Assembly (NCBI GenBank): GCA_017302835.1
Contig: JAFLCC010000003.1
Location: forward strand, 186,001-250,000
From: Deltaproteobacteria bacterium
GTDB lineage: Bacteria; Bdellovibrionota; Bdellovibrionia; Bdellovibrionales; Bdellovibrionaceae
DNA: 64,000 nt
Reading direction: 5' to 3'
A model generated the notes under the pieces. That model saw only the letters and a list, made by a program, of their open reading frames with translations, was not told the origin of the DNA and searched no databases. This document shows positions 35,115 to 41,182 of the stretch, one piece after another. The position numbers and the translations under genes were made by a program. How positions within the stretch are numbered: position 1 is the first letter of the stretch; each line of letters begins with the position of its first letter.

Positions 35115-35342
35115 ATTTACCGTTTCTTTTGGGGTTTAGAAAAATAATCAGACTTAGATTTAAGTCTAACTTTTAATAAAATCAAATAGTATCCAATATA
35201 AATACTACTTCAATAGTAGAGAAGCGAGTCTAGGATTTTTGAGTTTTAAATTATTCGATTTAGAAGAATTCAAAAAACAAATATCATTAAAATGTTGTCA
35301 ACTTTAATTCCACTGAGACTTGTTAAATTTTATGGAGGTTCT

Positions 35343-38090
35343 GTGAAGAGCAATTTAATTAGAGGTATTCATTTATTTTCAGTATTTTCAATGTTGGTAT
35401 GTTGTACCAATACGACGATTAAATCATCTGATACCATGAGTGCCAAAAATGAAACCATATCAAGAACTATTGCCGCTGAAGAGTACCCTATCGAGATGAG
35501 AAATCCAGAATCCAAATTGACTTATTGGGGAGAATATCAAGCTGTCACAAAAGATCTTAAATCCAAAAAGAAATATGCCTTAGACCGAACGGATTCGGGT
35601 CTAATCAATCTAATTATTCCTGGCCAAGGAAAGGCTGCTGAAATTGTTAAAAATGAAAAGCTTTTTGCTTTGTCAAATCCAGAGTTATATCATTTTTTAG
35701 TATGGATGAGGGCCAATCCTATTTCGACGTTTCAAGATATTAGAAATAACCAACAAAGTGCGGATAGTCCTAAGGGAATCATGCGGTTTAAACCCTTGCC
35801 AAAGAAAAAATTTGCTTACCAACCGGTTGCGGATACCATTGTGGTTACTAAAATGGATGATGTTCTTGAACTGATGGATCAGCCAAAAATATTTTCAGTA
35901 AGAAATTATACAAAAAAAATGGAGGAGTCAGTTGGTCCTTTTATGTTGGCCTACGATGAATCAAGATACAATCTCAAAGAAAAACCATGGATGCGAAAAA
36001 TGCTGCCTGCCAGTGATTTACCACGAGTCAGAAAGCTGGTTAAAGATATTTCTTTAGGAGTTCTGGCAGAGCAGAGATATGTGGGAAGTGATATTAGAGG
36101 AAAAGAGTTTGGTCGGATCGAAGTTATCAATCAATATGCTCGTCGTTCTCCCATCTTGTTCACTCAACAGTATTTTGGGCTAAAAGGTGTTCACATAGAA
36201 AAACTGTTTGATTGGTCAAGAGCGACTCAAGATGATTTTTTCCACAATTTAGTTAGTGATTCTAGCGTGAAAAAAAATGCAGAAATCGCGGGGAAAGAGC
36301 TACATGAATATTTAAAAGAGTATATTCCTCGAAGAGAGAAAGAAATTCAAAAGGAAATGGCACAAAGAAGCATTAGCAGGGATGAAAATAGTCCATCCTA
36401 TAAGTCTTATTATGAAGAGCTTGATATTCTGAGCCGACTGATATTAGATAATAATCCGGATGTTGTTATTTCAGAACATGATGACAAGGCTGCTCGAATA
36501 AGAAGTAACATTATTGGAACCTTGGTGGGTGGGATCGAAACAACTCAGGCCGCGATAGCTCAAGCTTTTAATGAAATTCAAAAAAGACCAACATGGTTAA
36601 AATATGCACAAGATGTTGCAAGTAAAGCAGAAATCGCCGAAGTGAATCATGATGAAAAAAGCCTTAGCTTTTATACCTCAGAAATGGAAAAGTTAGTTTG
36701 GGAAGCTCTAAGATTTCATCCTGTAAATCCAATAGTCGTTCGATACGCAGAAGAGGATTACAAAATGAAAAATGGGTTTAAAATTCCCAAAGGAGCCCAT
36801 GTTTTAATCGCGACTCAGTCTGCGATGTTTGATGAACAATATTTTAACAATCCCAATTCTTTTGAGCCCAATAGGATAAATTCTGAAAAATTTATCGCTC
36901 TTGCAAAGTCGGATAGTTTTGTAAAGAAAAGTAGCTATCCAGATGTTCAAAATTTCGAGAATTCTGAGAATCATATAAGGTCAACAAAGTGGACGAAATT
37001 TCAAAAATCTTATTTTCATTTAGGCTACGGTCATCATCGTTGTCTAGGTGATTATATTGGGGAAATTCATGTACCTGAAATGGCCATGCAATTATTCAAG
37101 CTACCAAATGTGAAAGTAGTTGACGGGCAAGCAGGAAATTTAGATTTCAGATATTTACGAGTTACCAACTTTCTAGGAGATAAGTTTTATTATTCGTTTC
37201 CAGAATCCTATTCGATTGAGTTCGAAACGAATTCACAACTTCCTAGAATTAAAAAATTACTGGAAAAAAAACCAATTGAAATTGCCAATAGAAATTATGC
37301 TTATGACTTTTTTTTGCAAGACTTTGACAGAAATGTTTACAGAAGGTGTTTGGCAGGGTGGGATATTGATAAGGAAGCGTCTCAATTAAAAAAAGATGAT
37401 TTCTTTAAGGGAATGGGCAATGCTTCACTCACACATGATTTAAATGGTGATGGATCAAGTAAAGATTTGTTATTTTGTCGTTTGAATAGAGAATTTCAAA
37501 AATGTATGACTGATAAAGAAAAAGAATTAAAATTTCATCATTTAGGTGGCGAAGAGAGAACGACGGGGCCAAAGTCCCAACTCAATGATTTTGACAAACA
37601 TCAAGCTGCCTATGAGGGGTGTTCTAAGAATCTTAACTTAACAGAGCAGGCTTTTTATGAAAATTTATTTTTTGGTAAATCCATTGATCTTAGTTCCTTA
37701 GACTTATCAAAAAGTATTAGAAATAATGATGCCTTTAAATTCGAAGATGACTTGAAATTTTACAATCGGTTTAATTCCAGAGAATCAATGTTAAATCCCT
37801 TAGGTTGGAAAAAAATTCCAGAATCAGAGAAAGCTCTGATGTATACTCGTTTTGACCTTGATTTTAGATTATGTTTTGGGAAAAAGGTGAACCTCGAAAA
37901 AATTCAGCCATTGAAGGCATACAATCAATGCAAAGATGGGGTTTATATGCCAAAACAATTTATCAAAGTAGGGTCTCTGTCACAAGTTGAAAGATTTTAT
38001 ATGTTAAGGGATTATCTCAAAGTGCCGGGCGTAAATTCAGTCGATTCTGTGAAAGGTGTCGAAACAAGTCTCGAGAAAGAGAATCCCTAA
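35343..38090 (+). CDS. exported cytochrome P450 lipoprotein with a long C-terminal extension
   Basis: GTG at 35343 is chosen over the ATG at 35292 because GGAGG precedes it and because it leaves a normal signal peptide with lipobox MLVCC (Cys20/21). The 915-residue product has P450 signatures: I-helix GGIETT (~396-401, instead of AGxDT), EALR (the ExxR, ~454-457), and the heme loop FHLGYGHHRCLG with thiolate Cys ~567. About 280 further residues follow, with several Cys (YRRCLAGWD, LLFCRLNREFQKC, FRLCFGKK) and no known domain. Bacterial P450s are normally cytoplasmic, so an envelope-anchored one is unusual. Redox partner and substrate are unknown; none is encoded next to it. The small gene at 38196 may be in the same transcript. 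Confidence 0.82.
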   Translation: MKSNLIRGIHLFSVFSMLVCCTNTTIKSSDTMSAKNETISRTIAAEEYPIEMRNPESKLTYWGEYQAVTKDLKSKKKYALDRTDSGLINLIIPGQGKAAEIVKNEKLFALSNPELYHFLVWMRANPISTFQDIRNNQQSADSPKGIMRFKPLPKKKFAYQPVADTIVVTKMDDVLELMDQPKIFSVRNYTKKMEESVGPFMLAYDESRYNLKEKPWMRKMLPASDLPRVRKLVKDISLGVLAEQRYVGSDIRGKEFGRIEVINQYARRSPILFTQQYFGLKGVHIEKLFDWSRATQDDFFHNLVSDSSVKKNAEIAGKELHEYLKEYIPRREKEIQKEMAQRSISRDENSPSYKSYYEELDILSRLILDNNPDVVISEHDDKAARIRSNIIGTLVGGIETTQAAIAQAFNEIQKRPTWLKYAQDVASKAEIAEVNHDEKSLSFYTSEMEKLVWEALRFHPVNPIVVRYAEEDYKMKNGFKIPKGAHVLIATQSAMFDEQYFNNPNSFEPNRINSEKFIALAKSDSFVKKSSYPDVQNFENSENHIRSTKWTKFQKSYFHLGYGHHRCLGDYIGEIHVPEMAMQLFKLPNVKVVDGQAGNLDFRYLRVTNFLGDKFYYSFPESYSIEFETNSQLPRIKKLLEKKPIEIANRNYAYDFFLQDFDRNVYRRCLAGWDIDKEASQLKKDDFFKGMGNASLTHDLNGDGSSKDLLFCRLNREFQKCMTDKEKELKFHHLGGEERTTGPKSQLNDFDKHQAAYEGCSKNLNLTEQAFYENLFFGKSIDLSSLDLSKSIRNNDAFKFEDDLKFYNRFNSRESMLNPLGWKKIPESEKALMYTRFDLDFRLCFGKKVNLEKIQPLKAYNQCKDGVYMPKQFIKVGSLSQVERFYMLRDYLKVPGVNSVDSVKGVETSLEKENP

Positions 38091-38635: not shown

Positions 38636-39739
38636 CTAAAATTTCTTTTCGAGAAGAAAGCCATTTTCTTCTAGAGAGCAAAGTTGATAGGCGCCCTTAA
38701 AACATCTTTCGTTGGAAGCATTTTTACCTACGACTAAAACCATATCGAGGCTTAAAAAAATAAGTCTTCTAATGGCGCTGAGGCTCCAATTGGGAGCACC
38801 CATTTGAATCAGCATTTCAAGTCTTATGAGTGCTTGGTGTGGGTCATGAGCATGCAAAGTGCCGAAACTTCCTAGATGCCCTGTGGATAAGGCCATCAGG
38901 AAATCTTTTGCTTCAGATCCTCTAATTTCCCCCATCACAATTCTGTCTGGTCTTAAGCGGAGGGACCTCTTTACTAAATCTGTTTGGTTAATTTCAGTCT
39001 TGATGTTGTTTGGATTTGATTGGGTCAATAATTTCATACTGGCTTTGTTTGGAAGAGATATTTCGGAAGTGTCTTCAATGATGATAGATCTTTCTGTTGG
39101 TTGGGTTAGATTTAAAAGGGAATTAAGCACAGAGGTTTTCCCTGAACCTGTTGAGCCTATAACTAAAAAGTTTTTTCTTTCAGAAATAATTTTTTGAAAC
39201 TCGTTAATGAGTACCTCGGAGCACCATTTTTTTTCGATTAGTCTTTTAAAGGTCCAGCTGGTTAAGGGATGTCTTCGGAAATTCACTGAGGAAAAATGAT
39301 GGGTGATTGATTTATCTATGATTGAAATTCTAAAATTTTCAAAGGAACCGTCGGCAAAAGGACTTTCAAGGTTCAAGATGCAACTTGTCTGATCGCAAAG
39401 TCTTTGAATAAATTTTTCGTAAGTATACTCAGATAGAAAATAATCGGTGTGTTTGATGAGAGTCCCATTCTTTTCAAAAAAAATTGAAACTGGATCATTG
39501 ATAATAATTTCAGATGTCTCCTCATCTTTAAGCAGCTCCTCTAAGGGGCCATAGGAGAAAAATTCATTTTGGATTCTTTTTTTGTAAGCACAACTAAGAT
39601 GTTCCGTTAAATTTTCTATGAGTGACTGCATTTTGTTCTTACTTGCTTCCTGATGAGATTGATCTCCTAAAGCAAATTCTTCATAGGTAAGTTGATTTAA
39701 TTTTGTTATTATTTGATGGGTTAAATTTGCCAATTCCAT
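38636..39739 (-). CDS. CpaF/TadA-like secretion ATPase
   Basis: A ~367-residue cytoplasmic ATPase of the type II/IV secretion family that powers Tad-type pilus assembly. Visible motifs are Walker A (VIGSTGSGKTSVLNSL), the Asp box IIEDTSEI, Walker B and Glu in DRIVMGEIRGSEA, and the His box LSTGHLGSFGTLHAHDP. An N-terminal domain with EIIINDP matches CpaF (INDP). The start at 39739, 1 base after the secretin stop and with a GGAAG site, is preferred over one 18 codons upstream. It forms an operon with the CpaC-like secretin, but no tadB/C, pilin or prepilin peptidase gene is nearby. Confidence 0.9.
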   Translation of the reverse strand: MELANLTHQIITKLNQLTYEEFALGDQSHQEASKNKMQSLIENLTEHLSCAYKKRIQNEFFSYGPLEELLKDEETSEIIINDPVSIFFEKNGTLIKHTDYFLSEYTYEKFIQRLCDQTSCILNLESPFADGSFENFRISIIDKSITHHFSSVNFRRHPLTSWTFKRLIEKKWCSEVLINEFQKIISERKNFLVIGSTGSGKTSVLNSLLNLTQPTERSIIIEDTSEISLPNKASMKLLTQSNPNNIKTEINQTDLVKRSLRLRPDRIVMGEIRGSEAKDFLMALSTGHLGSFGTLHAHDPHQALIRLEMLIQMGAPNWSLSAIRRLIFLSLDMVLVVGKNASNERCFKGAYQLCSLEENGFLLEKKF

Positions 39740-39740
39740 A

Positions 39741-41021
39741 CTAGATATCTTCCAGATGATTGATTTTATTATTATGTTTTTCATAATCTTCATCCATTTT
39801 CATGATCGAAGGTTTTACAAAAATCATCAGTTCTGTTCGCTTAGTCAAAAAATCTTTACTTGAGAATAAAGTGCCAATGATTGGCAGCCTTGAGATGAAA
39901 GGAACACCACTGTAGTTATCTCCATTGATATCTGTAAGAAGCCCAGAGAGGGCAATCATTTTTGAGCTGGTTAAATCAAAGAAACTGGATACTTTATTAG
40001 TGGTGATCGCAGGTATCCCATCAACACTTAGACTCTTGTCAATTGAAGAGACTTCGCTTTGTATTCCAATATTCATTCTCCCCAGGGAGTCCGCTTTAGG
40101 ATTGACTTTGAGTAGAATTCCATATTTTTTCCAGACCACGTCACCACCAAATTTACTTCTGGTTTTGATTGGAAATTCTCCACCCGCTAGGAATTCTGCT
40201 TCCTTACCGCTCCGACAAAGAATATTTGGGCTGGCCAATAATTTTCCATTTCCTGAGCTTTCAAGTAAGTGTAGTTTGGCTTCAAAATCTTGAATTTTAG
40301 TTGTTGGCAATATTTCAGCCTTGTAGGAGTCGGATAATTCAACACCATAATTTTGTGCAAAACCGCGGTTGATTTCGGCCACAGTTATTTGAACTTTAAT
40401 TACGGGAGCTAGGGTTAGAGAGGTGGGGTCCTTAATCACTTTGATACCAAAGGGTGTCAGAATTTTTTCATAATCTTTAAAATGAGGATCTTTGGGATGC
40501 AGTCTTAAAATAGGGCGAGAATTAAATTGAACTTTTTGTTCTGGAATTCCAAAATTTCCAAATAATTGATTAAAGTAAGCACCCATTTCCTCTTGAAGAG
40601 ATTCTTCGATATGAGCTGTGAACTCTATGGATTCATCGCCAGATACTTGTTTAGAAATTTCTATCCAGTCATTTAATCTATAAAGAGTCCCGGAAAGTAT
40701 AATTTGTGAATTTATCGTTTGAATTTTTAACCCCAATTTGTTCTCAAGAAGAGAATGTAGTTTTTTGAATAAGGATAGATTTTGTGGTTTTACAACTTGC
40801 ACTTTATGAAGCTCATCTTTAAACTTGAGGTAGCTCGTGCCAACCGATTTACCAGTAATGATGAGATTGTTCTGTCTTACTTGGCCGGTGATAACTCCTT
40901 TTTTTTCGATCCAAATCGTATTTCCTTTGAATGGAATTTTTAAGTTTTCACCTGTTGAAATTATAAATTCCATCCCTAAAGAATTGAGGTAAATTAATAA
41001 ATAAAAGATTATTCTTTTCAT
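39741..41021 (-). CDS. CpaC/RcpA-like outer-membrane secretin
   Basis: The start at 41021 gives a clear signal peptide (MKRIIFYLLIYLNSLG); an upstream extension to 41153 adds ~44 residues with no support, though neither start has a good SD. The product is ~426 residues. The N-terminal pilus-associated domain (IISTGENLKIPFKGNTIWIE) is followed by a BON-like segment and the secretin domain (VQFNSRPILR, LLASPNILCRSGKEAEFLAGGEFPI, then IALSGLLTD and FISRLPIIGTLFSS). These match the Tad secretin, which forms the outer-membrane gate for the pilus. It is co-transcribed with the ATPase downstream. Confidence 0.88.
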   Translation of the reverse strand: MKRIIFYLLIYLNSLGMEFIISTGENLKIPFKGNTIWIEKKGVITGQVRQNNLIITGKSVGTSYLKFKDELHKVQVVKPQNLSLFKKLHSLLENKLGLKIQTINSQIILSGTLYRLNDWIEISKQVSGDESIEFTAHIEESLQEEMGAYFNQLFGNFGIPEQKVQFNSRPILRLHPKDPHFKDYEKILTPFGIKVIKDPTSLTLAPVIKVQITVAEINRGFAQNYGVELSDSYKAEILPTTKIQDFEAKLHLLESSGNGKLLASPNILCRSGKEAEFLAGGEFPIKTRSKFGGDVVWKKYGILLKVNPKADSLGRMNIGIQSEVSSIDKSLSVDGIPAITTNKVSSFFDLTSSKMIALSGLLTDINGDNYSGVPFISRLPIIGTLFSSKDFLTKRTELMIFVKPSIMKMDEDYEKHNNKINHLEDI

Positions 41022-41182
41022 AATTGATTGGGATGCAATTATGGAAGTTGTTATGAGGGTGAATAGATTTGCTTCGAGATTCAAGTTTCGGAAAAAAGTT
41101 TTGTCTCCCAACTTTAGGACTTGTCTATAAGTAATTATACAAAGAATGAGCATTTATTTCTAGACGGGACCTTAGTAGCGTT

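Follow-up and report, generated by a model that had tools for sequence, protein, structure and literature searches.

The gene at 35343..38090 (+ strand) of the window, a stretch of 64,000 nt from contig JAFLCC010000003.1 of a member of the Bdellovibrionaceae, encodes an exported cytochrome P450 of 915 aa plus a stop codon, as judged from its sequence, its match to Pfam PF00067 and a search of the phylum. The sequence contains an intact P450 core behind a predicted Sec-type signal, and across genomes the gene co-occurs almost perfectly with that of an exported-looking c-type diheme protein. We consider it about an even chance (probability roughly 0.5) that this exported P450 makes up one half of a lipid-oxidation (oxylipin) module, in which it would consume a hydroperoxide made by the diheme protein without the help of a reductase. 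The preliminary description of this DNA had read the gene as that of an exported P450 lipoprotein that would need either electrons across the envelope or peroxide-driven use. Its observation is confirmed and its overall reading partly supported: the lipoprotein part is not universal (12/16 genomes), and the peroxide idea gains support in a narrower form, in which the oxidant would be a lipid hydroperoxide from a diheme partner encoded elsewhere.

Start codon and P450 core

The reading frame is open from an ATG at 35292 through the stop codon ending at 38090 on the + strand. The better translation start is most likely the GTG at 35343, because a Shine-Dalgarno-like GGAGGT lies ahead of it (35334..35339, + strand) and none precedes the ATG. 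We rejected the idea that the protein is simply cytoplasmic and its start wrongly called, given the GGAGGT ahead of the GTG and the signal segment kept in 17 copies (see below). A whole-genome search detected this product as the sole P450 in the 3.63-Mb source genome.

The P450 domain spans approximately residues 110-627 (35670..37223, + strand), as delimited by Pfam, alignment, an AlphaFold2 model and Foldseek. PF00067 matches residues 285-527 with 79.5 bits (cut-off 22.8; E 2.9e-22). No other Pfam domain was detected in the protein, and no fused COX-like dioxygenase domain. Searching NCBIfam yielded only sub-threshold P450 subfamilies, and the PDB sequence relatives are assorted P450s with E 3e-10 or weaker. 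The signatures that the preliminary description had reported were all located by alignment on the + strand: the I-helix acid-alcohol pair Glu399-Thr400 (36537..36542) within GGIETTQ, the K-helix motif E454xxR457 (36702..36713), and the heme-binding loop LGYGHHRCLG (37020..37049) with the thiolate Cys567 at 37041-37043. The first residue of this loop is Leu, where Phe is usual. The Glu-Thr pair is invariant in the 38 rows of alignment A2, which comprises the window protein and 37 of the best 80 P450 loci. An insert of ~45 residues (36876..37010, + strand) precedes the heme loop, in a stretch modeled with low pLDDT; among the 12 rows of alignment A1 the orthologue from the nearest relative (genome G063) is the sole other one with an insert of comparable length, and the insert is shorter in L039.

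The AlphaFold2 model built from the 38-row alignment has a mean pLDDT of 75.9 and a pTM of 0.81. Its best Foldseek match to a known structure has E 3.6e-14, and its neighbors are CYP134A1-like proteins, CYP184A1 with oleate, P450BioI and CYP153. These ordinary soluble bacterial P450s are cytoplasmic and reductase-dependent; they share the fold but have neither a signal nor a Cys-repeat extension. In ordinary P450s, the acid-Thr pair relays protons to bound O2. The CYP152 fatty-acid peroxygenases have Arg-Pro in the I-helix instead of acid-Thr. Peroxide-driven use is possible for both CYP152 and the window protein, but the I-helix pair and the family score differ, and a CYP152 identity was rejected on the Glu-Thr I-helix (38/38 rows) and on a score of 24.7 bits against the NF053744 cut-off of 600.

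Predicted export and lipidation

Bacterial P450s are generally regarded as cytoplasmic and reductase-fed. The N-terminus of the window protein (residues 1-21, MKSNLIRGIHLFSVFSMLVCC) is of a different kind. By sequence and hydropathy, a signal segment covers residues 1-20 (35343..35402, + strand) and ends in a lipobox-like LVC-C, in which the presumed lipid-bearing Cys is residue 21 (35403-35405) and the Cys at -1 is non-canonical. Export was predicted from the mean hydropathy of the best 11-residue stretch, with 22 of 80 loci serving as the cytosolic comparison set, and the genomes surveyed are MAG-based. The window protein reaches 2.45 and the cytosolic relatives at most 1.56. Each of the 17 copies from the 16 phylum genomes begins with a hydrophobic segment (values 1.62-3.19), whereas the 22 relatives from other phyla range from -0.14 to 1.56 and lack a signal segment. 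The earlier claim of export thus stands, as a prediction, for the Bdellovibrionota; homologs in other phyla begin at the P450 domain, so that the signal is kept in one part of the family and absent from the other.

The lipoprotein claim fares less evenly. The canonical lipobox is [LVI][ASTVI][GAS]C, with Gly, Ala or Ser usual at -1; since Cys occupies this position in the window protein, its lipidation at LVC-C is graded as likely rather than shown. A Cys at the signal-peptidase-II position was seen by eye in 12/16 genomes, and a scripted pattern matched 9/17 rows. Four genomes of one genus (G060, G061, G062 and G064) lack the lipobox Cys and have a signal segment resembling those of signal-peptidase-I substrates. 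From these sequences, the lipoprotein state appears to be common in the exported family, not universal.

The cysteines of the P450 region provide independent support for export. The heme Cys is the only one in 9 of the 10 exported rows, and 1-4 additional cysteines occur in 28/28 cytosolic rows (Mann-Whitney p 6e-6, which is overstated because the rows are related by descent). Loss of spare cysteines from the exported core fits an oxidizing compartment.

The C-terminal extension

Residues 619-915 form an extension with 6 Cys. As described earlier, it bears cysteines and has no recognized fold: no matches were found for the window member's extension in Pfam or among PDB sequences, and its model (pLDDT 72.6) gave no significant fold match (best Foldseek E 1.2; best VIA-align Z 2.6). 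It does have internal order. When profiles of its two halves were aligned, they matched with a probability of 97.4 and E 1e-11, compared to at most 2.3 in 20 column-shuffled controls. Judged from sequence, the extension thus consists of a Cys-bearing repeat that occurs twice in tandem, the first copy having a C-x8-C core. By Cys positions and profile alignment, the first copy covers approximately residues 646-778 (37278..37676, + strand; Cys 669, 712, 721 and 760), and the second approximately residues 784-893 (37692..38021, + strand; Cys 844 and 863). Length and Cys content suggest one copy in L043, L108 and the first gene of L040, and none in L041. No stand-alone extension domain was found in 368 genomes of the phylum; the domain was detected in 11, each time within a P450 locus. 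The repeat pair is probably a disulfide-stabilized helical accessory domain.

Distribution of the P450 family

The P450 family was found in 16/368 phylum genomes (E <= 1e-10). In the order (140 genomes), 20 genomes match at E <= 0.001; 13 of these score at least 61.5 bits and the other seven at most 26.2 bits. The seven low-scoring ORFs (L044-L050) resemble ordinary P450s, some with reductase-like parts, and have no extension. Scanning named genomes with a profile confirmed 136 loci, and the counts below use the best 80 of these 136. They come from Bdellovibrionota and mostly Nitrosomonas/Nitrosospira, with further hosts in Methylobacter and kin, Nitrospirota, Acidobacteria, Verrucomicrobia, Chromatiales and four cyanobacteria.

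A 40-row tree, which took 30 of these loci, separates the family from five ordinary P450s with support 97/99. Ten exported rows form one group (97/90), three others (L043, L108 and the first gene of L040) branch near the base of the tree, and the exported rows need 2 label changes. By this tree, export may have arisen once or more than once.

Co-occurrence with a diheme protein

With a presence threshold of E <= 1e-25, the diheme protein is found in 18/368 phylum genomes, namely in 16/16 with the P450 and in 2/352 without it (G110 and G129). Fisher's test gives p 3.9e-26, a significance inflated by shared descent. In the order, where presence was called by the gap between 107 and 72 bits, the diheme protein occurs in all 13 P450 genomes and in 2/127 others (p 1.5e-16, likewise inflated by kinship). 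The co-carriers are spread over seven families of the phylum (f1, f5, f7, f9, f11, f12 and f29), and in genus g4 the sole carrier, G027, has both proteins. From these sequence searches, the co-occurrence of the P450 with the exported c-type diheme protein is near-perfect.

The two genes are also frequently linked. By tblastn, a diheme gene lies at 68/80 of the best 80 of 136 P450 loci, a cyclooxygenase-like gene (PF03098) at 3/80, all of them cyanobacterial, and neither at 9/80 (L052, L058, L060, L066, L070, L071, L110, L118 and L128). Among these nine, L058 and L060 end near a contig end, and for L052 (G063), L058 (G060) and L128 (G367) the diheme gene is on another contig of the same genome. 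In the cyanobacterial locus L063, the P450 gene is followed by DUF1304, a lipoxygenase (PF00305, E 1.9e-9) and a cyclooxygenase-like gene (PF03098, E 2.7e-50). PF03098 was not found in the source genome, nor PF00305 in 11 genomes, in searches whose controls were silent as well.

G027, G084, G061 and G062 each have the genes for the P450, DUF1304 and the diheme protein in this order on a single strand. DUF1304 as a diagnostic third member was rejected, as it occurs in 81/140 order genomes and is informative by adjacency alone.

The source genome has the same pair of genes, unlinked. Its diheme gene is on a different contig from the P450 gene (C5 and C3, respectively), and the two are likewise split in G063, with the diheme gene at L137. 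Among the nine scanned ORFs neighboring the window P450, we found no redox partner and no diheme gene, in agreement with the earlier statement that no reductase is adjacent. They encode a sigma factor, a class II D/K/N-type tRNA synthetase, an HTH/HipA-like protein, a YchJ/SEC-C protein, a secretion ATPase, a secretin, a DUF3857/transglutaminase-like protein and two products without matches; by this content, an operon within the window was rejected.

Features of the diheme partner

The source genome's own diheme protein, of the c-type RoxA/"CytoC_perox" kind, has 785 residues and is encoded at G000:C5:131192-133549 (locus L134), directly behind a gene for a DUF1304 membrane protein (G000:C5:130786-131157). 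It has a signal-like N-terminus with an LFTSC lipobox-like site, the heme motifs CALCH208 and CMHCH530, and the motif PFLHNGSVP. An alignment of 20 rows (A4) shows no variation at His212, His534, His681, His752 and Trp439. Over residues 243-668 it is 59% identical to the P450-linked diheme protein of G027. It scores 271 bits against NF040606, "di-heme-cytochrome C peroxidase" (cut-off 150), for which one set of five diheme proteins scores 254-625 bits and another of seven 223-475. P450-adjacent diheme proteins in general are exported-looking and c-type with two CXXCH, and also match the RoxA-like PF21419. RoxA (4b2n) is the sole close solved structure, and the partner profile matches it with E 5.9e-28, chiefly over the last 110 positions, a distant likeness. 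The partner stays below the NCBIfam cut-offs for RoxA, RoxB and RoxC (900-1000), with 59-67 bits for the own copy and 56-75 for the own and G063 copies together.

A closer functional model is provided by PA2077 and PA2078 of Pseudomonas aeruginosa, named FadCcp by their authors. They are described as periplasmic proteins with two CXXCH, PYFHNGSVP and a C-terminal axial His, modeled on RoxA; PA2077 forms the 10S-hydroperoxide of oleate, which PA2078 converts to the 7,10-diol (PMC4496055). A second source likewise places diol synthesis by P. aeruginosa in the periplasm and reports that the products are released from the cell (PMC5155153). The FadCcp-type features (two CXXCH, P(Y/F)LHNGSVP, a late His, a signal) are all present in the own diheme protein. 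We therefore liken the partner to the FadCcp kind by the features described for PA2077/PA2078, as a candidate member.

A proposed lipid-oxidation module and its alternatives

We propose that the diheme protein would act as a periplasmic dioxygenase that converts an unsaturated lipid to a hydroperoxide. The P450, in the periplasm or at the outer membrane, would bind this lipid hydroperoxide and either rearrange it to a diol, an epoxy alcohol or a ketone, or cleave it. As the oxidant would enter with the substrate, the P450 could do without a reductase, without NAD(P)H and without a route for electrons across the membrane. Lipid hydroperoxides are pointed to by the genomic context, in which unrelated lipid-dioxygenase families (diheme, cyclooxygenase-like and, once, lipoxygenase) stand beside one P450 family; from this we infer that the simplest role of the P450 would be the step after hydroperoxide formation. 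Fungal and animal P450s acting on hydroperoxides or endoperoxides are self-sufficient (PMC13049297), which would remove the problem of electron supply to an exported P450.

Several observations speak against the module. In Nitrosomonas and kin, the diheme protein has a signal and the P450 has none, so that the two would be in different compartments; the stretch covered around 9/80 loci contains no dioxygenase gene; the likeness of the partner to RoxA is distant; and the searches for PF00305 and PF03098, with their silent controls, found neither a lipoxygenase in 11 genomes nor an animal-type peroxidase in the source genome. The invariant Glu399-Thr400 also appears to favor electron-driven O2 chemistry and weakens the hydroperoxide reading. 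An Asn stands near the iron in plant AOS, in PGIS and in the fungal synthases of diols and epoxy alcohols; some fungal allene oxide synthases carry Thr at this distal site and, so far as is known, are self-sufficient all the same (PMC13049297). Because of these Thr-bearing enzymes, the Glu-Thr pair weakens the hydroperoxide reading and does not exclude it.

The same pair (38/38 rows) is the strongest point for an electron-driven periplasmic monooxygenase, which would activate O2 with electrons from or through the diheme cytochrome or the respiratory chain and act on a shared lipid. In its favor, too, the constant partner is a cytochrome of the c type in which one Trp (W439 in A4) is invariant, and a DUF1304 membrane protein is often encoded between the two genes. 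We regard this explanation as unlikely, but as the most serious competitor. The Nitrosomonas-type P450s have no signal and their diheme proteins do, the cyanobacterial partner is cyclooxygenase-like and no cytochrome c, and DUF1304 is unspecific (81/140 order genomes). A family-wide role of the diheme protein as electron donor was rejected, since the compartments differ outside Bdellovibrionota; cytosolic P450 relatives also accompany the exported diheme protein, which indicates that the general link is metabolic rather than one of electron transfer.

The substrate could also be an isoprenoid or another hydrophobic compound instead of a fatty acid, cleaved or oxygenated by the diheme protein in a RoxA-like manner and then trimmed by the P450. 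RoxA as the only close solved structure and weak matches to RoxA, RoxB and RoxC fit this idea, which is improbable given that the own and G063 copies score far under the family cut-offs (56-75 bits against 900-1000) and that cyanobacterial relatives adjoin fatty-acid-type dioxygenase families. A little less probable still is a periplasmic peroxygenase or peroxidase that detoxifies H2O2 independently of any diheme product: it would account for an exported P450 with no adjacent reductase but leaves the diheme partner in 16/16 genomes unexplained, and the CYP152 I-helix is absent (NF053744, 24.7 bits against 600). A P450 anchored in the membrane by its N-terminal helix and exposed on the cytoplasmic side is very improbable: localization is by prediction and the window lipobox is non-canonical, but signal features with differing cleavage sites occur in 17/17 copies, the core has lost cysteines, the extension holds 6 Cys, and the partner looks exported.

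Comparison with known systems

Our searches of the open-licence literature returned no description of a P450-diheme module and no on-topic publication on exported P450s. The proposed hydroperoxide module shares with PA2077/PA2078 (PMC4496055) an exported c-type protein of the RoxA kind with two CXXCH, a PYxHNGSVP-type motif and a late axial His, and the idea of a two-step periplasmic lipid oxygenation, which here is inferred from genes. In Pseudomonas a diheme paralog carries out the second step; in the present family an exported P450 takes the place of this constant companion. A dioxygenase and a P450 are combined as well in the fungal linoleate diol synthases, in which a COX-like dioxygenase is fused to a P450, and in the animal routes from COX to TXS or PGIS (PMC13049297). 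The likeness to these systems extends to the COX-like gene beside the same P450 family in cyanobacteria and to the HxC heme loop. Unlike in the fungal and animal systems, the genes here are separate, the partner is a c-type diheme protein, the proteins are exported, and the P450 carries extra C-terminal repeats; the Glu-Thr of GGIETTQ also differs from the Asn in SRS4 of the fungal DOX-CYP (PMC13049297).

Implications

The tie of this P450 family to diheme and cyclooxygenase-like dioxygenases, and at one locus to a lipoxygenase, is a lead toward bacterial counterparts of the fungal and animal P450s that act on lipid hydroperoxides. A wholly extracytoplasmic bacterial oxylipin pathway, made up of a diheme dioxygenase and an exported, partly lipid-anchored, donor-free P450, is a tentative proposal to which we give somewhat less than even odds. 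If true, it would parallel, by convergence, both the fungal dioxygenase-P450 fusions and the COX-P450 cascade of animals, with a P450 family relocated outside the cytoplasm. Its natural setting may be the uptake of prey lipids by predatory bacteria or their relatives. A clade that keeps the signal, sheds cysteines and is accompanied by a diheme protein makes extracytoplasmic P450 function, and the oxidant that it uses, directly testable.

Gene Neighborhoods of the P450 and the Diheme Cytochrome

Immediately downstream of the window P450 gene (35343–38090, plus strand), genes for a secretion ATPase (T2SSE) and a secretin are found on the minus strand (38639–41153). The DUF1304-diheme gene pair, located apart from the P450, is adjoined by a divergent gene for an exported-looking thioredoxin-TPR protein both in the window's own genome (L134:6401–8230) and in its nearest relative, G063 (L137:12398–14248).

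In a cyanobacterial locus (L063:7854–13836), the P450 is part of a four-gene cluster, in which it is followed in order by DUF1304, a lipoxygenase whose N-terminal part is transthyretin-like, and a cyclooxygenase-like gene. Two tandem diheme genes precede a cytosolic P450 in the Nitrosomonadaceae loci L094, L095, L101, L109 and L124, an arrangement that recalls the PA2077-PA2078 oleate diol synthase pair of P. aeruginosa.

Incomplete and Duplicated P450 Genes

The P450 reading frame of the G367 MAG is broken (L128:7545–10636), and the diheme gene of this genome is on a different contig. In G118, the N-terminal half of a P450 (L051:4645–5946) runs at a contig end into sequence that by eye is PLP-enzyme-like; this join is possibly an assembly chimera.

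A second P450 with predicted export was detected in G038 (L040:6013–8112), which retains the Glu-Thr and ExxR signatures and has lost the heme-Cys loop. An intact copy adjoins it, with the diheme gene between the two, so the loop-less P450 could be either a gene in decay or a partner that has no catalytic role.
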